Below, one piece after another: positions 13,499 to 60,868 of a stretch of DNA of 64,000 bases. The stretch's first letter is position 1. Each line of letters starts with the position of its first letter. The notes beneath the pieces were generated by a model. The model saw nothing but the letters and a program-made list of their open reading frames with translations, was not told the DNA's origin and did not search any database. The stretch lies in contig JAIMBJ010000002.1 in NCBI GenBank assembly GCA_023511455.1, positions 62,001 through 126,000 of the forward strand, in the 5' to 3' direction. This DNA comes from Bacillota bacterium (GTDB lineage: Bacteria > Armatimonadota > HRBIN16). The position numbers were made by a program, and so were the translations under genes.

Positions 13499-14385
13499 GG
13501 CGTGCCTCCTTTCAGGCGCTCTTCGGACAACAGATGGCGTGCCTGCCAGCCCAGCTCGCGTTCGATTTTTGCGGTGCTGTACAACCCATGCCTGCCTGTA
13601 ATCCCTTCCGCCAGCGGCAACCACTGCGGCAGGAAGCGGGCAATGAGCTCCCTCGTCGGCTCGGGGCGGTTGGTAACCGGTGCCACCACATAGTAGACGG
13701 CAAAGCCGGGCGCATCATCCGCTTCCAGCGAAAGCCGGAACGCCTCCGCGGCGTCCACTGAATGTACGTAGTGCCACGTGCTTACCAGATAACCCTCGTG
13801 ATTCGGGCGTTTCAGCTGTTCCAGTGGGCGAGGATGGTAGGTCTCGAACCACTCCGGTCGCCAGATGCCGCACAGGCGCAGGCAGTGTGTGCGGATACCG
13901 TACGCACTGAAAAAAGCACGCGCGGTCAGCTCGTTGACATACTTGGACAGGGAATAGTTGTCCTGTGGGTCGGCGGGTTGTTCTTCGTCTATCGGCAACC
14001 GCTGCAACGGGAATCCTTTTTCCGAAACGCGGTAAGGTCCCAAGCCGAGCGCATTGATACTGCTGGCAAGCGCGACGCGCTTCACACCGTGCGCCTGCGC
14101 AGCTTCGTACAGGTTCCACGTGCTGACCGTGTTCACCGCAAACGTTTCGGGTCCTGCGCCGGCGATAGCTCCCAAATGCGCGATGGCGTCCATCCCTTCC
14201 GTCACGCGAAAGCAGTGCTCCTTGTGGGTCAAATCCCCCTGCAGGAACGGCATGTGCCTGCGCACGTCCTCACCATCTTGCGGCAGCGGGTTTTTATCCG
14301 TCAGTATCACCTCATGCCTGTTGCACAGCGCCTGTGCCACATGCTGGGCGAGCTTTCCTGCTCCTCCCGTGATTAACACACGCAT
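13495..14385 (-). CDS. NAD-dependent epimerase/dehydratase (uronate dehydrogenase-like SDR)
   Basis: 296 residues. N-terminal Rossmann motif TGGAGKLAQ, acidic residue after the second strand (LTDKNP), AHLGAIAG, and catalytic Tyr-Lys in YSLSK mark an extended SDR. The short length and the pattern near SINALGLG resemble uronate dehydrogenases, which oxidise D-galacturonate or D-glucuronate to the aldarate lactone. Coupling to a ManD-like dehydratase supports sugar-acid metabolism, but NDP-sugar epimerase activity cannot be excluded. ATG at 14385 is preceded by GAGAGG. Confidence 0.82.
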   Translation of the reverse strand: MRVLITGGAGKLAQHVAQALCNRHEVILTDKNPLPQDGEDVRRHMPFLQGDLTHKEHCFRVTEGMDAIAHLGAIAGAGPETFAVNTVSTWNLYEAAQAHGVKRVALASSINALGLGPYRVSEKGFPLQRLPIDEEQPADPQDNYSLSKYVNELTARAFFSAYGIRTHCLRLCGIWRPEWFETYHPRPLEQLKRPNHEGYLVSTWHYVHSVDAAEAFRLSLEADDAPGFAVYYVVAPVTNRPEPTRELIARFLPQWLPLAEGITGRHGLYSTAKIERELGWQARHLLSEERLKGGTP

Positions 14386-14495
14386 CCTCTCTACAGTTCC
14401 TCCGGGCCAAGTACTTTACAGCACCTTTTCGGGTTCTGCTTATCGCTATCCTGCCGCAGGAGAACACGGTTGCCACGGGGAATAGAGACACCGCT

Positions 14496-15395
14496 ATGGC
14501 TTCCGCGAAACGATACTGGTTGCCCTCCCGGTTCGCCCTGTTATTGACCTGTGTGCCGCATCTGGGGGAGCGTCAAATCGCGCAGGTGCTGCACCGCTGG
14601 GCGCGGTCGGGCGTGTCTGTGGACGAGTTCCTGTCCACGCCGCCGCAGACTTTGCAGCAGGAATGGGGACTTTCGGCACAGGCGGCGCAGGCACTAACCG
14701 AACCCAATGCCGACTGGCGGAAGCAGTTCGGGCAGATGGACGCACTGGTGCGGCGGCACGGTGTGGAGGTGCTGACCGCACAGCATCGGCTATATCCCAT
14801 GGCGCTGGAAGCCTTTTGTGAGTTTGCGCCGCCGGTGTTGTTCGCACTTGGCAACCTGCATCTGTTGCAGGACGGCTGGCGTTTCGCGGTCGCCTGCTCG
14901 CGCGACGCACCCCATCTGGCGCTGGAGGCAGCAGACGAGATTACCCGACAGGCGACTCGCGAAGGCGGCATCCCTGTCACCGGGCACAACACGCCGCCCT
15001 ATCAACGGGTCGCCATCGCGGCGATTCGGGCGGAAAAGCCCTCGGTGACGGTGCTGGACAGGGGACTTCTGGACGCGCTGGGCGAAGGTTTGAACCGTCC
15101 ACTGTTCCCGGCGGCGAGGTTGTATGAGCTGGAGTTCCGCACCGACCGCGACCTGGTGCTGTCGCCGTTCCCCTTGCAGGCGGGCAGCCTGGGCTTGCAC
15201 AATCAGCGCAGGGACGAGCTGGTATTCGCGCTGGCGGACGTCGTGTTTGCGGTCTGGGTGCGGGCTGGAGGTGTCATGGAACGTCTCTGTCGGCGGGCGA
15301 AGGAGCGGGGCACGCGCATCGAGGTCTGGAAAGCCCCCGACGGAACCATCTCCGAAGGCGTCAAACGGCTGATAGAGGACACACCCTCGCCGTGA
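14496..15395 (+). CDS. Divergent DprA/Smf-like protein
   Basis: 299 residues. The N-terminal 75 residues are a helical HhH-like segment (VPHLGERQIAQVL). Residues 90-290 follow the order of the DprA Rossmann-like domain: YPMALEAFCEFAPPVLFALG, then a first strand, PSVTVLDRGLLDAL, DLVLSPFPLQAG, and a late ALADVVFAVWVRAG strand. Typical DprA motifs are altered: the usual G-x-R loop reads ACSRDA and the SG-x-A-x-GID segment reads TGHNTPPY. DprA loads RecA onto incoming single-stranded DNA in transformation. It precedes the restriction-modification genes by 55 bases, so a DNA-sensing role linked to them is possible but unproven. Confidence 0.7.
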   Translation: MASAKRYWLPSRFALLLTCVPHLGERQIAQVLHRWARSGVSVDEFLSTPPQTLQQEWGLSAQAAQALTEPNADWRKQFGQMDALVRRHGVEVLTAQHRLYPMALEAFCEFAPPVLFALGNLHLLQDGWRFAVACSRDAPHLALEAADEITRQATREGGIPVTGHNTPPYQRVAIAAIRAEKPSVTVLDRGLLDALGEGLNRPLFPAARLYELEFRTDRDLVLSPFPLQAGSLGLHNQRRDELVFALADVVFAVWVRAGGVMERLCRRAKERGTRIEVWKAPDGTISEGVKRLIEDTPSP

Positions 15396-54111: not shown

Positions 54112-54199
54112 GGTAATGGGAACCTGACCGAGAACCAGTCTGCGATGGTGATGCCACTTGCTACGCACGCCTGCCGATGCACGCCAAAAACAATGACAG

Positions 54200-54220
54200 G
54201 GGCGGGCTTGTCGCCCGCCC
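54200..54220 (-). terminator. Hairpin terminator of the porin/ABC operon
   Basis: GGGCGGGC/GCCCGCCC with loop TTGTC gives a perfect 8-bp GC stem 28 bases after the outer-membrane barrel stop. It is followed on the minus strand by a short T-rich tract (TGTTTTTGG), as expected for an intrinsic terminator. Confidence 0.7.
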
Positions 54221-54247: not shown

Positions 54248-55660
54248 TCAGAACCGATAGTTCGCCTCGATGAAAAATAGCCCGCCGTCGTCGCCAGCAG
54301 GATAGACCGAACGGACAACGCCTCTGCCCTGAACCCAGCTTTTATAGACCGATAGCTGCAGGTTGTCATCGACACGGTAGTTCAGGGAGATGTCGAACAC
54401 ATCCGCGAGGTCGCGATTGCCCCCGGACGGTCTGCCTGCGATGCCGAAGGTGGCGTTGTCGAAGGCGCCGCCTCCGGCGTACCACAGGTCTTCGCTGCGC
54501 TGCAGACGCAGGCGATGGAAATCCGCTCGAAGAGACCAGCGTGGATGCGGCGTCAACATCACCTGTATAAAGGTATCTTCCAGGTTCATCGTGTTGTAGA
54601 ACGGGGTCAGGGCGTACAGGCGTGGCGTGAAAGTACCGGGGAAGAAGGTCTTGTGTGTATCGTCCGCGTTATCGCCATCGCCGGAACCGAGGTAGTAGCC
54701 GACACGCACCCAGGGTTTCCACATAGTTGGGAACTGGAAACCCGCTTCTGCCGCCAGCGCGTATGCGGAGTGGCTCAAACGCCCCCACTCCCCGCCCTGC
54801 AGTGCTGCCCACAACAACAGGTCAGCCCGACCGGCGGCGCTGTTCCAATCCTGCACCCAGTGTCCGCCCAGTGTCCACACGCGCACTTCGTCGGTATCTG
54901 CCTGTCGTGCAGCCAGTGGGCGGTTGTCCACCTTCAGCACATCGCGCGAGTCGCGAAACCATCCCCAGAAGAGACGCCAGTCGTAATTGGTACCGCCTTT
55001 CTCGTGGGCGCGCGCATACGCCAGATAGAGCTGGTTCACCCGGGTCAGTGTCGGGTTGCCGTTCAGGTCGAAAGCGCCTTGCGTGGGATAAGCAGCAAAC
55101 GCCACCCAGCGCGATGAGTCACTCCCCAGCTGAACCAATACCCCATCGAACGAGCGAGTCACAGGGGCGAAACCGAACGGACCGATGAGACGGTTACTGA
55201 TTCGGTTCGTGTGCAACCAGTTCAATCCCGCGTCTTTGACAGTGACCTCGCGCCCATCGGCATACTCCATCCGCCCCAATTGAACGGTTCCCCAATCCCG
55301 TTTCCACTGGATGCTCAACTGTTTCAGGAACAGGCTTGCGCGGTTATCACCGTTGACCGCTCGTAAAGTTCCGCCGAGTCCCAGCTGTCCCGCGGGGGGC
55401 GGCGCAACAGCGTTCGGTAGGCTGAACAGCGACGCTTGCGCCAGCTCGGCAGTCCACACAGAGTTCCCTGAGCTGCCGCTCAGTGCAAGGCGCAGTAGAG
55501 AATGGGCATAGGTGTAGTCGGAGTCGAACCCCTGCACATTGAACCACTGCCAGTCCTCCACACGAAAGCGCCAGCTGCCCTGAATGGTGGGTTGCTGGGC
55601 GGTCGCCGCCACCATCAGCAGGCTAACCGCGGCGACAGCGAAACAGGTGACTTTTCTCAT
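54248..55660 (-). CDS. Outer-membrane beta-barrel protein (alginate-export-like porin)
   Basis: 470 residues from ATG 55660, with AAGGAGG nine bases upstream and a signal peptide (AAVSLLMVAATAQ). Alternating strands run through the protein, and it ends ANYRF, a C-terminal Phe typical of outer-membrane barrels. The pattern SFDGVLVQLGSDSSRWVAFAA and WVRVGYYLGSGDGDNADDTH recalls the alginate_exp (PF13372) group. It is the last gene of the six-gene operon, 46 bases after the ABC permease, so it may admit the same substrate across the outer membrane. Confidence 0.78.
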   Translation of the reverse strand: MRKVTCFAVAAVSLLMVAATAQQPTIQGSWRFRVEDWQWFNVQGFDSDYTYAHSLLRLALSGSSGNSVWTAELAQASLFSLPNAVAPPPAGQLGLGGTLRAVNGDNRASLFLKQLSIQWKRDWGTVQLGRMEYADGREVTVKDAGLNWLHTNRISNRLIGPFGFAPVTRSFDGVLVQLGSDSSRWVAFAAYPTQGAFDLNGNPTLTRVNQLYLAYARAHEKGGTNYDWRLFWGWFRDSRDVLKVDNRPLAARQADTDEVRVWTLGGHWVQDWNSAAGRADLLLWAALQGGEWGRLSHSAYALAAEAGFQFPTMWKPWVRVGYYLGSGDGDNADDTHKTFFPGTFTPRLYALTPFYNTMNLEDTFIQVMLTPHPRWSLRADFHRLRLQRSEDLWYAGGGAFDNATFGIAGRPSGGNRDLADVFDISLNYRVDDNLQLSVYKSWVQGRGVVRSVYPAGDDGGLFFIEANYRF

Positions 55661-55706
55661 CGACACATGCCTCCTTTTCACACTGATATTGGTTATGTCT
55701 ATCCGA

Positions 55707-56507
55707 TTATCCTGCTTCCGATTGTAGATGGGGGGTCAGGCGACGCGACAACCACCGTGCGGCTGCATCGAAACAATAGCCCAGCCCACCGATAACCAGG
55801 ATCACCGCCATCATCTCGCTGTAGGCGAGACGGTCGCGCGTGTCCAGAATGTAATAACCTAGACCTGCGCTAACCCCCAGCATCTCCGCTGGAACCAGCA
55901 CAATCCATGCGATGCCCACCGCCAGCCGAAAGCCAGTCAATACATGGGTTAACACCGCAGGCAAATACACCAGACGCACCAGTTCCCAGCGGCGCGCGCC
56001 CATACTGCGAACTGCCAGTATCCACTGCTTATCGATGTGCGAGATGCCTGCCCGTGTGTTCAGCATCATGGGGAACACCGTCGCGATGCCAATCAGAAAA
56101 TAAGCTGGCGCGTCGCCCACACCGAATACCATGATGGCGATGGGCATCCACGCCAGTGGGGAAATCATGCGCAGCAGCTGCAACACCAGGGTGCTGGCGC
56201 GTTCCAGCCAGCCCACTGTGCCCAGCAACACGCCCAGCGGCACCCCGACTGCGCTTCCGATGGCCAGCCCGAGTATCACGCGCTTCAGGCTGACTGCGAT
56301 GTGTGGCGTCAACGCGCCAGTGCTGAGCAGGTCCCACAAACTGCGGAAGGTGGGCAGGGGAGCAAACGATGCCAGAACGCCTTCCGCCCCGCGCGATAAG
56401 CTCCACACCTGCCACCCCATCAGCAACACGCCAATCCCAGCCAGCGGCAACAGCTTCCGATGCCATCGGGCGGAAGGTAGAGCGGCGGAATGCATCGCAG
56501 TGGTCAC
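55707..56507 (-). CDS. ABC importer permease, nitrate/sulfonate/taurine family
   Basis: 266 residues with six hydrophobic segments. The EAA-like loop is clear in RSMGARRWELVRLVYLPAVL, and SLKRVILGLAIGSAVGVPLG is typical of SsuC/TauC-type permeases. It overlaps the binding-protein gene by four bases. The family handles anions such as sulfonates, nitrate, taurine or aromatic acids. Confidence 0.9.
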   Translation of the reverse strand: MTTAMHSAALPSARWHRKLLPLAGIGVLLMGWQVWSLSRGAEGVLASFAPLPTFRSLWDLLSTGALTPHIAVSLKRVILGLAIGSAVGVPLGVLLGTVGWLERASTLVLQLLRMISPLAWMPIAIMVFGVGDAPAYFLIGIATVFPMMLNTRAGISHIDKQWILAVRSMGARRWELVRLVYLPAVLTHVLTGFRLAVGIAWIVLVPAEMLGVSAGLGYYILDTRDRLAYSEMMAVILVIGGLGYCFDAAARWLSRRLTPHLQSEAG

Positions 56508-57664
56508 GGCTCGAACGCCTCCGTTCGGGTGAGTTGCCTGGGCAACCCGAAACTGGATGTCCCGCCCGCGGCGGCAATCGCCTTGCGCACGAAACGGTCA
56601 TCGACTAAATCCCGCGCCACCTGCTCGGGCTTGAGCGTGCGCAGGAAGTCGCGGTTGCCCTCCACCTGCGTGCGCTGCAACAGGCGCACCAGCAACGCCG
56701 TATACGAAGGGAAGGGATACGGCTGAAAGTCGATGCGCGGCACCCGCCACGCTTTGTGCCGGATGGCACCCTCGTGCTGGTAGAAAACGGGGTCGTACTG
56801 CACCAGCACGCGCAGCAGCACTGCTTGCGGGTGAGGCGTGTATTTGCCTGCCTCTCGCGACAGCAGGCGGGCGGTTTCTATCCGATTCTGGCGGATCCAC
56901 TGCTGCGCTTTCACGACGGCATTCACCACCGCCTGCGTCCAATCGGGTCGCTGTTGCAGGTCGTCCTCGTGCATCAACACGACGCAGCAGGCATGGTCGC
57001 GCCACACATCCCCAGACAGCCGCAGCACCCGCCCGACGCGGTTGGTTTCCGCGGCGGCGTTAAAGGGTTCTGCCACAATATAGCCAGCGATGGAGCGGTT
57101 CGCCAGGGCAGAGACCATCTCAGGGGGCGGCATCACCACCAGCCCCACTTCGTTCTCGCGCAGCTTTTTCCCCTGTGGACGCAGCACAGGCTGCAGCCCC
57201 TCTCGGCGCAACAGCTCCTGGAGTATCACGTTGTGGATGGAGTAGTAAAACGGAATGGCTACCTGCTGTCCACCCAGTTGCTGCAGGGAGCGAATCTGCG
57301 GCTGCACCGTGATGGCGGAGCCGTTGGTGTGATTCCATGCCACCACCTTCGCGGGGAACCGATTTCCGTAACGCAGCAGGATAGCCGTAGGCATCAGGAT
57401 ATGCACCACGTTCACCTGCCGCGCGATGAAAGCTTCCACCAGATTCGGCCAGGCGCGGAACAGGCGGGGTTGTTCCGCAGTAAGCCCTTCCGCTTCGAAC
57501 ATTTTGCGTGCATGTGCCACCAGCAGGGGCGCGGCGTCGGTGATGGGCAGGTAGCCGATACGCACCGGCTGTTCCTTAGCACGCTGGGATGCCGAGGGTG
57601 TCTGCGCCAGTAACGCGCCAATCGCCGCCATCGAGAAAGCCTGACAACAGTTCAAATGACCCAA
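56504..57664 (-). CDS. ABC importer binding protein, nitrate/sulfonate/taurine (NMT1-like) family
   Basis: 386 residues. Marks: VRIGYLPITDAAPLLVAHAR, the switch AEGLTAEQPRLFRAWPNLVEAFIARQ, VAWNHTNGSAITV and the GGQQVAIPFYYSIHNVILQ segment, which is close to NrtA/SsuA-type proteins. Only a weak N-terminal hydrophobic signal (FSMAAIGALLAQTPSA) is present, with a Cys pair before it, so it may be a lipoprotein or poorly predicted. It overlaps the ATPase gene by 13 bases. Confidence 0.88.
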   Translation of the reverse strand: MGHLNCCQAFSMAAIGALLAQTPSASQRAKEQPVRIGYLPITDAAPLLVAHARKMFEAEGLTAEQPRLFRAWPNLVEAFIARQVNVVHILMPTAILLRYGNRFPAKVVAWNHTNGSAITVQPQIRSLQQLGGQQVAIPFYYSIHNVILQELLRREGLQPVLRPQGKKLRENEVGLVVMPPPEMVSALANRSIAGYIVAEPFNAAAETNRVGRVLRLSGDVWRDHACCVVLMHEDDLQQRPDWTQAVVNAVVKAQQWIRQNRIETARLLSREAGKYTPHPQAVLLRVLVQYDPVFYQHEGAIRHKAWRVPRIDFQPYPFPSYTALLVRLLQRTQVEGNRDFLRTLKPEQVARDLVDDRFVRKAIAAAGGTSSFGLPRQLTRTEAFEP

Positions 57665-58461
57665 TCCGCAACCTCCTTCGCCTCTTCACGTAGTGTACTG
57701 TGTCTGGCGAGATGCTCGACAATCGTGGTATGAAGATGTATCATCTGGGGGTCTCGATACTGCCTCGGATGCGGCACGTTGATGTGCCACTGCTGCTCGA
57801 TGCGCCCTGGACGTGCGCTCATGAGCAGTACCCTGTCTGCCAGAAACAGCGCCTCGTCGATATCGTGAGTGACCAGCAGGCAGGTCGTGTTCTGCCGGTG
57901 CACCAGCTGCAGCAGGGTGCCTTGCAGATGGTGGCGGGTGTGGGCATCCAGCGCGGCGAACGGCTCGTCCAGCAGCAACAGGGAGGGGTTCCGCACCAAC
58001 GCCCGCGCCAGCGCAACCCGTTGCGCCATGCCGCCGCTCAGCTGGTGGGGATAGTGGCGTGCGAACGCCTCCAGCCCCACAGCACACAGCACGCTCTCTA
58101 CCCTGCGACGCAACACCGCGGCGGGTAACTTCTCCCGCTGCATCTGCAACCCCAGAGCGACGTTCGACCACACTTTGCGCCAGGGTAGCAGACAGGGGTC
58201 TTGGAACACGACCGCCACGTCAGGGTGTGGCTCGCGCAGCGGGTTTCCGTTCAGAAGCACCTCCCCCGCGTCTGCGGGCTGCAGTCCAGCGATGGTGAGC
58301 AGCAGCGACGATTTGCCACAGCCACTGGGACCCAGCAGGCACACAATCTCTCCCTGCCGCACTTCGAAGGAGATATGCTCGAACGCAACGAGTGCCGCGT
58401 CGCGCGTGCGGTACACTTTCGTCAGGTCTGCGACCCGCAGCAGGGGCTGGGCGTTGCTCAT
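57652..58461 (-). CDS. ABC importer ATPase, nitrate/sulfonate/taurine family (SsuB/TauB-like)
   Basis: 269 residues. Walker A GPSGCGKSS, the Q-loop VVFQDPCLLPWRKVWSNV, signature LSGGMAQR, Walker B LLLLDEPFAALDAHTR and the H-loop VTHD are present. The LLPW and FAALDA wording is typical of SsuB/TauB-type ATPases. It overlaps the upstream enzyme gene and the downstream binding protein, so enzyme and importer are made together. Confidence 0.92.
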   Translation of the reverse strand: MSNAQPLLRVADLTKVYRTRDAALVAFEHISFEVRQGEIVCLLGPSGCGKSSLLLTIAGLQPADAGEVLLNGNPLREPHPDVAVVFQDPCLLPWRKVWSNVALGLQMQREKLPAAVLRRRVESVLCAVGLEAFARHYPHQLSGGMAQRVALARALVRNPSLLLLDEPFAALDAHTRHHLQGTLLQLVHRQNTTCLLVTHDIDEALFLADRVLLMSARPGRIEQQWHINVPHPRQYRDPQMIHLHTTIVEHLARHSTLREEAKEVADWVI

Positions 58462-59525
58462 CGCGCTGCAGGCTCCTTCTGGGACTGTTTGAGTTGCAAC
58501 GCCAGCTGGGTGGTGCTTGGCGTCAGCACCGGCAGGAAGGTAACTTCGCGCAGGCGTCGCGCGGTGCCGCTGTCGCGGAAGTACGCCGCACCACCCGCCG
58601 CTTCCAGTTCAAGCTGCGCCGCCTTCACAGCCAGATCCACCCACTGGATGCGTGTTTGAAACAGCCGACGCAGGTCGGACTGTCCGTATCGTCTCTGCTG
58701 CGCAAGCCGTTGCGTGCGGCGTTGTAGCCGATGCCACTGTCGGCAGGCGGTCTCCACCCGCTGTTCCAGAATCGCCTTCGCACCCTGCATTTTCGCCGAT
58801 GCTTCCTGCAATGCCCGCCGCGTTATGCCCATCGGCAGCCCGCACTGTAACAGCAGAAAGCGCGGACGAACGCTTTGGAGAAAGTCGTGCGCGTTGTCGC
58901 TGAGCAGCCAGCGTCGGGGGAGCCGCACGGAACGCAGCGTCAACGACGCGGTCTCGGAGCTCTGCAAGCCCAGCAGCTGAAACGTCTCGCTCCGTTCCAC
59001 TCCCTGCGCCTCCGCGGGTACCGCCGCCACGATTGCCTGCCGTTCGTCCACCTGCGCTGCCACAGCCACTACAAAACGATTGACCCGCAAATTCGACGCC
59101 CACGGGAGATGACCGTCCAGCTGAATCTCATCCTCATGCAACACCGCCCGCGTGCGCAGTGGCTCCAGACCGCCGAGATACTTCATGGCGTTGGATAGTC
59201 CCGTCGCTCCCGCGCGGCGGGCGGTTAACAGGTCAGGCAGCAGGGTGTCGCGCAGGTCGGTGTTGGGCGTGTGCAGCAGGTACTCGATGAACACCCGCTG
59301 GCACCAGAACAGAAACGCTGTGGTGAGACACTCTGCGGAGACCTCGGCAATGGCTTGCACCGCTTCCCACAAGGTGTCGCCCTCGCCACCCATTTCTCGG
59401 GGCACGCCGTGGTGCAGGTAGCGTTGCTCCGCCAGTAGCTGCAGTGCGTGGTGGGCATCCCCATGCCCTTCGTTCATCGCGAGCGCGGATGCCGCTAGCT
59501 GCTCGCGTATCGTTTGTGCTGCCAC
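58458..59525 (-). CDS. Acyl-CoA-dehydrogenase-like flavoprotein (SfnB/DszC-type candidate)
   Basis: 355 residues. The N-terminal helical half (LLAEQRYLHHGVPREMGGEG, VSAECLTTAFLFWCQRVF) and the middle beta-domain (LDGHLPWASNLRVNRFVVAV) follow the acyl-CoA dehydrogenase fold, including the W/P-W/G motif. The catalytic Glu of true dehydrogenases is not evident. Members such as SfnB and DszC are flavin-dependent oxygenases of sulfur compounds, and the coupling to a sulfonate-type importer points that way, as inference. It overlaps the ATPase gene by four bases. Confidence 0.78.
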   Translation of the reverse strand: MAAQTIREQLAASALAMNEGHGDAHHALQLLAEQRYLHHGVPREMGGEGDTLWEAVQAIAEVSAECLTTAFLFWCQRVFIEYLLHTPNTDLRDTLLPDLLTARRAGATGLSNAMKYLGGLEPLRTRAVLHEDEIQLDGHLPWASNLRVNRFVVAVAAQVDERQAIVAAVPAEAQGVERSETFQLLGLQSSETASLTLRSVRLPRRWLLSDNAHDFLQSVRPRFLLLQCGLPMGITRRALQEASAKMQGAKAILEQRVETACRQWHRLQRRTQRLAQQRRYGQSDLRRLFQTRIQWVDLAVKAAQLELEAAGGAAYFRDSGTARRLREVTFLPVLTPSTTQLALQLKQSQKEPAAR

Positions 59526-59536
59526 GGTATGCCTCC

Positions 59537-60049
59537 TTATCGCACGTTCTGGATGGTGGTCAGGTGGTCTACAGGCGCACCGACTACCTCGCGAGCCTTC
59601 AGCACTGTTTGCTCGTCGGGGCTGTCATACAGGCACAGGCACTTGCTCATGTCCTCGCAGACGTAGGTGCGCTCGAACTTCACCTCAGGCACCTGAGCAT
59701 ACAGCGGCGACTTTTCCGCCTTGCGCTTCAGATAGGCTTCCATCGTTAACCCCGCAGGCAGGTTCCACTCTACGAGGTAGTTCGCTCGCGCTTTGCGCTG
59801 GCGTACGGTCTCCAAATCCTGCCCGACCAGCCGCACCTGCTTCACCAGCTCTGCCTGCAAGCCGCTGCGGGCAAACGCCTCGCGTGCCGCCTGTTCATCT
59901 GACGCCAGCAACACCACATACAGGCGGTTGTCCTGTGCGCTCGCCTGGGCTTCCAGCAGCTCGGCGCGCGTTTCCACTGCCTGAAGTCGCTGTTCGAGTA
60001 GCGCACGCTCTACACCATTGCAACTGCTCTCGATGAGGTACAGGTTCAT
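59537..60049 (-). CDS. Tandem DUF4242-like small protein (ferredoxin-like fold)
   Basis: 170 residues from ATG 60049, with GGAGG eight bases upstream. Two similar halves can be seen: MNLYLIESS...RLYVVLLASDEQAAREAFARSGL and, later, NYLVEWNLP...CLCLYDSPDEQTVLKAREVVG. Each has the strand-helix-strand pattern of DUF4242, a ferredoxin-like fold whose members have been linked to nickel binding. The first half has lost the Cys/His features of the second. As first gene after the promoter it leads the operon; role unknown. Confidence 0.72.
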   Translation of the reverse strand: MNLYLIESSCNGVERALLEQRLQAVETRAELLEAQASAQDNRLYVVLLASDEQAAREAFARSGLQAELVKQVRLVGQDLETVRQRKARANYLVEWNLPAGLTMEAYLKRKAEKSPLYAQVPEVKFERTYVCEDMSKCLCLYDSPDEQTVLKAREVVGAPVDHLTTIQNVR

Positions 60050-60079
60050 TGCAAACGCCTCCTGCATTAGTTTACTATG

Positions 60080-60108
60080 ATGATACCTTTAGTCAGGATA
60101 AATGTCAA
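60080..60108 (-). promoter_or_regulatory. Strong sigma-70-type promoter for the six-gene operon
   Basis: TTGACA (60103-60108) and TATCAT (60080-60085) on the minus strand are exactly 17 bases apart. The -10 box lies 30 bases before ATG 60049. Confidence 0.82.
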
Positions 60109-60213
60109 GGGTGATAGAGACCTTCTGTGGTGCATTTTTTGCCTTGCCCCTCCGCTCGAAGGTGAAGTATAATCAGGATGCATGCTCCAAACGGCTTCAG
60201 GAGCGTACGCAAA

Positions 60214-60528
60214 ATGCGGGTGGGCGCGTTAAGGCTGGATAGACGCAAGCTGGAACGCCTCTGTCGTAAGTGGCGCATCGTCAAGCTGGAGGCGTTCGGC
60301 TCGGTACTGAGGTCAGACTTCCACAGTGAAAGCGACGTCGACCTGCTGGTTACTTTCGCTCCAGATGCCAGATGGTCGCTGATGCAACTATATGAGGCGG
60401 AGCAAGAGTTTGCCGCGCTTTTCGGACGCCGCGTGCAGCTTGTCCCCAGAAGCGGCATCGAGCGCAGCGCGAACTACATCCGGCGCCAAGCGATACTGGA
60501 TAGTGCCGAGGTCATCTATGCCGCATGA
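60214..60528 (+). CDS. MNT-type nucleotidyltransferase antitoxin (MntA-like)
   Basis: 104 residues from ATG 60214 (CAGGAG upstream). The motif G29-S30 then D41-x-D43 (EAFGSVLRSDFHSESDVDLLV) is intact. It pairs with the HepT-like gene that follows and overlaps it by 11 bases. In HepT/MntA systems the nucleotidyltransferase adds AMP to the toxin, blocking it. Unlike the module at 30338-31088, both genes here are intact. Confidence 0.87.
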   Translation: MRVGALRLDRRKLERLCRKWRIVKLEAFGSVLRSDFHSESDVDLLVTFAPDARWSLMQLYEAEQEFAALFGRRVQLVPRSGIERSANYIRRQAILDSAEVIYAA

Positions 60529-60868
60529 CCCCGCAGCGGCGATGCTGGATATGTTGATTGCAGCACAACGGGCTGTCAGCCGTCTGGGTGCAAGTACGGA
60601 GGAAGAGTTCCTTGCCGACGAAGATGCCCAGTGGTTCATGTTCAGCCAGATTGTCATCATTGGGGAGGCGGCCAATCGTGTGGATATGGCCACACGTGCC
60701 CAGCACCCGGAAATCCCATGGGCTGCAGCTGTTTCCATGCGCAACCGTGTCGTACACGGTTATGACGCGATAGATTGGCGTATTGTGTACGCTACCGTAA
60801 AACACGACCTTCCCTCCCTTATCGAAGCTCTCAAGGCAATCGTCCCTCCAGAACAACAGTCACCCTGA
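60518..60868 (+). CDS. HepT-like HEPN toxin (DUF86)
   Basis: 116 residues from ATG 60518. Helical DUF86 pattern: MLDMLIAAQRAVSRLG, FMFSQIVIIGEAANRV. The RNase motif R75-x4-H80-x-Y82 (RNRVVHGY) is complete, so the toxin should be active and also carries the Tyr that MntA-type partners AMPylate. Coupled to the upstream antitoxin. Confidence 0.87.
   Translation: MPHDPAAAMLDMLIAAQRAVSRLGASTEEEFLADEDAQWFMFSQIVIIGEAANRVDMATRAQHPEIPWAAAVSMRNRVVHGYDAIDWRIVYATVKHDLPSLIEALKAIVPPEQQSP

Follow-up and report, generated by a model that had tools for sequence, protein, structure and literature searches.

The window is a stretch of 64,000 nucleotides from the genome designated G000 (completeness 99%). At positions 54248–60108 it carries six co-directional genes on the minus strand, as the sequence-only reading had claimed. 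They occur in the order DUF4242 protein, acyl-CoA-dehydrogenase-like protein (ACAD), ABC transporter ATPase, substrate-binding protein (SBP), permease and Alginate_exp barrel, and each has a Pfam match. The genes and the associated signals are as follows, in the direction of transcription.

60080–60108, minus strand: sigma-70-type promoter, TTGACA-17-TATCAT, 11 of 12 matches.
60080–60095, minus strand: conserved box TGACTAAAGGTATCAT overlapping the -10 element, a candidate regulator site by its conservation in the genus.
59537–60049, minus strand: DUF4242 (SCO4226-like, srpF-type) protein; PF14026 in the C-terminal half (E=4e-23).
58458–59525, minus strand: ACAD-fold flavoprotein-like enzyme lacking the dehydrogenase glutamate; Acyl-CoA_dh_N (1e-7), AlphaFold2 and Foldseek.
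57652–58461, minus strand: ABC transporter ATPase; PF00005 (E=5e-34), with Walker A, signature and Walker B motifs.
56504–57664, minus strand: NMT1_2/NrtA-like SBP with a TTG start; PF13379 (E=2e-48).
55707–56507, minus strand: ABC transporter permease with a GTG start; PF00528 (BPD_transp_1, E=5e-27).
54248–55681, minus strand: Alginate_exp-family outer-membrane barrel; PF13372 (E=5e-16).
54186–54220, minus strand: possible weak terminator, an 8-bp GC hairpin followed by a distant T-run.

The overlaps of 4–13 bases described earlier are present at three of the five junctions (ACAD/ATPase, 4 nt; ATPase/SBP, 13 nt; SBP/permease, 4 nt), whereas 11 nt (DUF4242–ACAD) and 25 nt (permease–barrel) separate the genes at the remaining two. 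The strong promoter claimed upstream was found, and most of its sequence is shared by the five genus members that were compared (the window and four others). As for the claimed terminator, an imperfect hairpin (54220–54200) lies 3' of the barrel gene and a T-run begins ~9 bases further on, but the signal is weak and was not called by a terminator scanner. The earlier observation was thus partly confirmed. The gene order is kept in relatives, including the barrel 3' of the permease in G003, G005 and G007; the arrangement is therefore not due to chance, and the operon is a real, intact unit. No Rfam element, riboswitches included, was detected in the window.

The specified bases of TGACTAAAGGTATCAT are identical in every genus copy; a search for the exact box gave a single occurrence in the window, and of 170 loci only the genus copies have it upstream. 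Written as TGACTA-NN-GGTATCAT, the box overlaps the -10 element in the window (60080–60095) and in the genus loci L100–L103. It presumably resembles Rrf2-type sites and might be the operator for a sulfur regulator. Two overlapping open reading frames at 60178–60868 (plus strand) diverge from the operon; judged by sequence, they resemble a pair of nucleotidyltransferase (MNT) and HEPN-type genes, which is a common toxin–antitoxin-like arrangement.

The start of the DUF4242 protein (MNLYL, at 60049) is conserved in the genus, while the longest open reading frame would begin at 60067. The protein belongs to the PF14026 family (81.8 bits; gathering score, 28.5) and contains one such domain, confined to residues 97–171. 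Its halves gave no significant alignment with each other (hhalign probability 0.8%, E=0.07), and the tandem, duplicated DUF4242 proposed earlier is not borne out. The gene is the single PF14026 gene of G000. Identity with the nickel-binding protein SCO4226 was rejected because the equivalog score was 20.5 bits against a cut-off of 125 bits. A C-x-C motif is invariant in all 11 of the DUF4242 homologues.

The AlphaFold2 model of the ACAD has a pLDDT of 94.2, and its fold is clear, with TM-scores of 0.76–0.89 to acyl-CoA dehydrogenases in Foldseek. Alignment to isovaleryl-CoA dehydrogenase agrees with the earlier remark that there is no clear catalytic glutamate: the family profile has no Glu at the corresponding position, and a C-terminal TPSxTQ replaces the usual motif. 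The conserved residues are instead G-L-S-N-x-x-K, E121, W142 and N145. SfnB and DszC belong to the same superfamily, but the scores lie far below the curated cut-offs (SfnB, 40.6 against 430.9 bits; DszC, 15.3 against 850 bits). The enzyme is carried by six of ten genus members.

The SBP model (pLDDT 88.2) has 3un6, NrtA and CmpA as its nearest solved structures, ahead of SsuA and TauA; 3un6 is the nearest solved SBP both by sequence (~23–30% identity) and by fold. Against curated models, the SBP reached 99.7 bits for the SsuA family (cut-off 163.5) and 30.6 bits for the taurine SBP (cut-off 490), and its identity to SsuA proteins is ~20%. The NrtA/CmpA-like fold of the model is consistent with the binding of a small anion, which we consider a likelier substrate than a sulfonate. 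The models of SaoA, SaoP and SaoX matched below cut-off, and the SaoAPX transporter, which is treated in the literature alongside metal and metalloid resistance, was rejected. The barrel is somewhat more plausible as an import channel than in another role. Because the window barrel and a barrel fragment from Acetobacter gave no BLAST alignment, their common family is an annotation match only.

The ACAD–ATPase–SBP–permease set was found in Pseudomonadota, Cyanobacteriota, Deinococcota, Thermomicrobiota and Actinomycetota. A scan of genome contigs with the SBP returned 468 relatives, of which the best 80 comprise three close ones (71–96%) and others at 57–65% from Pseudomonadota and Cyanobacteriota; at these 80 loci the ATPase and permease adjoin the SBP in nearly all cases and the ACAD in most. 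Plasmid records extend the set to Thermomicrobium, Deinococcus and Pseudonocardia. Among 398 sampled Pseudomonadota genomes, 17 contain a total of 18 window-type SBP genes, and comparison of positions placed an ACAD gene within ~3 kb of 16 of them. Co-occurrence of DUF4242 with the importer, the check proposed in the sequence-only reading, was found in several phyla, together with the enzyme.

The small partner gene differs among these loci. It encodes DUF4242 in the window genus, pANL, Kovacikia, T. roseum and Pseudonocardia, a CMD/AhpD-like protein in most Pseudomonadota and Deinococcus, and OsmC in several cyanobacteria and others. On the ACAD tree the partner label needs 7 changes (minimum possible, 3; shuffled mean, 23.6), and the partner has therefore been swapped several times. 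Invariant cysteines are also found in the CMD proteins (H-x-C-x2-C in 73–77 of 77) and in OsmC (one Cys in 29 of 29). That three unrelated cysteine proteins occupy the same slot interchangeably suggests a common mechanistic step, and we tentatively regard DUF4242 as a thiol or sulfur partner of the enzyme.

Synechococcus elongatus PCC 7942 carries the five genes from DUF4242 to permease (SYNPCC7942_RS13435 to RS13455, srp genes) on its plasmid pANL, 3' of cysK and gamma-glutamyltransferase and with srpI, cyd, epsC and a second cysK nearby. The DUF4242–ACAD–ATPase–SBP–permease order and strand are identical to those of the window and form one transcription unit, and the SBP, DUF4242 and ACAD proteins are 58%, 52% and 46% identical, respectively. 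The pANL unit has no adjoining outer-membrane barrel gene and is preceded by cysK and gamma-glutamyltransferase, whereas the window operon stands alone and includes the barrel. The original report of this cluster is said to be that of Nicholson and Laudenbach in 1995. A sulfur metabolism cluster on pANL is named in PMC9239245.

In Staphylococcus aureus, SAOUHSC_00135 is annotated as srpF, 00136 and 00138 as transporter parts and 00139 as acyl-CoA dehydrogenase, and in strain USA300 a DUF4242 gene lies 5' of ssuB. From gene order, we take SAOUHSC_00135–00139 to be NWMN_0115–0119, and 3un6 to be SAOUHSC_00137. NWMN_0115–0119 are marked as part of the CymR regulon (a ‘sulfonate’ ABC operon). Compared by annotation apart from the SBP, this operon contains DUF4242, ATPase, SBP, permease and ACAD genes like the window, but the ACAD gene comes last and the SBP is 3un6, the distant relative described above. 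We found no proven substrate in the literature for either the pANL genes or the CymR-regulated operon of S. aureus. Since the pANL homologues reside in a sulfur cluster and the S. aureus counterpart belongs to the CymR regulon, the window operon is very probably a sulfur-acquisition system, and by analogy it would be induced by sulfur limitation. The system is not unique to the window; it is a widespread sulfur-scavenging family.

A sister clade of the ACAD, 23–28% identical to the window enzyme, is linked to cyanase. In the 398 Pseudomonadota genomes, the sister ACAD was found in 17 and cyanase in 70; cyanase was present in 13 of the 17 genomes with the sister ACAD and in 57 of the 381 others (Fisher p=7.5e-8). 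When positions were compared, the two genes were no more than ~10.5 kb apart in ten genomes (G107, G122, G129, G145, G253, G269, G310, G327, G422 and G444). Sulfurtransferase and rubredoxin/FAD reductase genes are further neighbours of this clade. Directly 3' of the cyanase gene of Caballeronia (L107), an MBL-fold protein (14306–15007) matches NCBIfam models of sulfur dioxygenase and hydroxyacylglutathione hydrolase. In G422 (L160), genes for ATPase, SBP, permease, OsmC, ACAD, sulfurtransferase, cyanase and FAD reductase stand in one row, L113 contains an OsmC–sulfurtransferase–ACAD–cyanase cluster, and Marinobacter (L106) has a related cyanase cluster. The OsmC–ACAD–cyanase loci of Marinobacter, Acetobacter (L096), Caballeronia and G422 combine an ABC importer, an ACAD and a cysteine-bearing small protein as the window does; they differ in that OsmC replaces DUF4242 and in the addition of cyanase, FAD reductase and/or sulfurtransferase.

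By sequence similarity, the SBP links the window clade to the cyanase clade. In Marinobacter, the SBP of the cyanase locus shares 45% identity with that of the window, compared with ~20% for SsuA, and it belongs to the window's SBP group, as does that of G422. SBPs at two sulfurtransferase loci (L098 and L109) are 45–46% identical. In Elainella (L012), the SBP is 63% identical and the ACAD groups at 100/99 with that of the L113 cluster. Several cyanase loci have a different, NrtA-like SBP (~27%). Cyanase was found in the flanks of none of the 80 loci with a window-type SBP (the best 80 of 468 relatives), and the cyanase gene of G015 (L114) has no adjoining ACAD gene.

Two of the records call for comment. 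L113 (G093:C87), from a bin assigned to the phylum Armatimonadota, is a short contig with TetR, OsmC, sulfurtransferase, ACAD and cyanase genes followed by rhodopsin-like and fasciclin-like genes, and the contig may be mis-binned. L108 (NZ_CP119140.1), a Neisseria gonorrhoeae record of 2.17 Mb, is catalogued as a plasmid but looks like a chromosome; it has a sister-clade ACAD gene with an adjoining FAD-reductase match and no importer nearby.

The whole G000 genome contains no member of the sulfite reductase family (NIR_SIR), no flavin reductase (PF01613), no cyanase and no luciferase-family protein (PF00296), the last in accord with the earlier statement that SsuD is absent. Without sulfite reductase, this organism would gain little from a sulfonate pathway with sulfite as its end product, and the combined absence of genes for sulfite reductase, flavin reductase and luciferase-family enzymes fits better with sulfur released below the level of sulfite. 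Sulfide- or persulfide-level sulfur could be used directly, and the bacterium may depend on reduced sulfur.

One branch of the family is sulfur-controlled and the other is cyanase-linked, and a substrate yielding both sulfur and cyanate is therefore indicated. The earlier reading had left open an organosulfur compound or another anion; sulfonates are disfavoured by the evidence, which instead suggests a small anion containing sulfur, with thiocyanate (SCN-) the likeliest candidate, an assignment by analogy that we consider evenly balanced. A cysR mutant of S. elongatus is reportedly unable to use thiocyanate as sole sulfur source. We infer the ligand, the reaction and the roles of the DUF4242 partner and the barrel in the following scheme. 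The anion would pass the outer membrane through the barrel, be captured by the NrtA/CmpA-like SBP and be carried into the cytoplasm by the ABC transporter. There, the ACAD-fold flavoenzyme and its cysteine-bearing DUF4242 partner would split the S–C bond oxidatively; the sulfur, at the sulfide or persulfide level, would be transferred to a thiol and used to make cysteine, and cyanate would be released. The absence of cyanase from G000 and from the flanks of the 80 window-type SBP loci, in contrast to the sister clade, counts against thiocyanate, as does the different SBP of several cyanase loci. The cyanate output may be small at the scale of sulfur demand, which would explain the missing G000 cyanase. 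Substrates may also have diverged, since the window ACAD is so distant from the cyanase-linked clade.

The overall logic would hold equally for a different sulfur-containing substrate, for example thiosulfate, an organic thiocyanate or isothiocyanate, or a small anion derived from a thiol. The sulfur control of homologues, the thiol-type partner proteins and the neighbouring sulfurtransferase genes are compatible with more than one compound, but the cyanase linkage would be unexpected for thiosulfate, and isothiocyanate, being neutral, would have no use for an anion-binding protein of the NrtA type; we regard this alternative as unlikely. A sulfonate or sulfone system, in which an imported sulfonate is attacked by an SfnB/DszC-type two-component flavin monooxygenase releasing sulfite, is rather improbable. 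The importer architecture is that of Ssu and Tau systems, the homologues are under sulfur regulation, and weak matches to SfnB (40.6 bits), DszC (15.3 bits) and the SsuA subfamily (99.7 bits) exist. All three scores are, however, far below cut-off, the SBP is distant from SsuA in sequence and nearer NrtA/CmpA in fold, G000 lacks an SsuD-family enzyme, a flavin reductase to supply FMNH2 and a sulfite reductase to use sulfite, and the cyanase linkage of the relatives is left unexplained. Import of nitrate, cyanate or a related nitrogen anion, with the ACAD acting in nitrogen use, is more improbable still: the SBP is NrtA/CmpA-like, and cyanase and sigma-54 type regulators occur close to the sister clade, but the homologues of known regulation are sulfur-controlled and the loci of the window clade show neither cyanase nor any nitrogen gene in their vicinity. 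Sulfonate, taurine and nitrate were rejected as first choices on cut-off scores, identity, neighbours and the missing sulfite reductase. SCO4226-type nickel handling, suggested by the naming of PF14026 after a nickel-binding protein, and ordinary acyl-CoA oxidation, suggested by the clear ACAD fold, are scarcely credible given the low equivalog score, the missing dehydrogenase Glu and a conserved gene set without a metal or fatty-acid gene.

Thiocyanate is the substrate of two known routes, thiocyanate hydrolase and copper thiocyanate dehydrogenase, which have been described for energy metabolism and not for sulfur assimilation (PMC5328954). The proposed thiocyanate reaction would share its cyanate product with the dehydrogenase route, while the enzymes are unrelated. 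In the literature, we found no described DUF4242–ABC or thiocyanate–ACAD system. The earlier interpretation is supported as to a sulfur or anion-use pathway served by a dedicated importer and outer-membrane barrel; the pathway is not wholly undescribed, given the pANL cluster and the CymR regulon. It is conceivable, though we lean slightly against it, that the family as a whole performs cross-phylum thiocyanate-sulfur assimilation, in which an SCN- ABC importer, an ACAD-fold flavin desulfurase and an interchangeable cysteine protein would yield persulfide-level sulfur and cyanate. If true, thiocyanate would have a third biochemical route, found in S. elongatus, in many Pseudomonadota and possibly also in S. 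aureus, and a supply of sulfur from thiocyanate in heterotrophs and cyanobacteria would lie outside the two routes of PMC5328954. One chemically specific hypothesis would cover the pANL genes, the S. aureus operon, DUF4242 and a large unnamed ACAD family and make them all testable.
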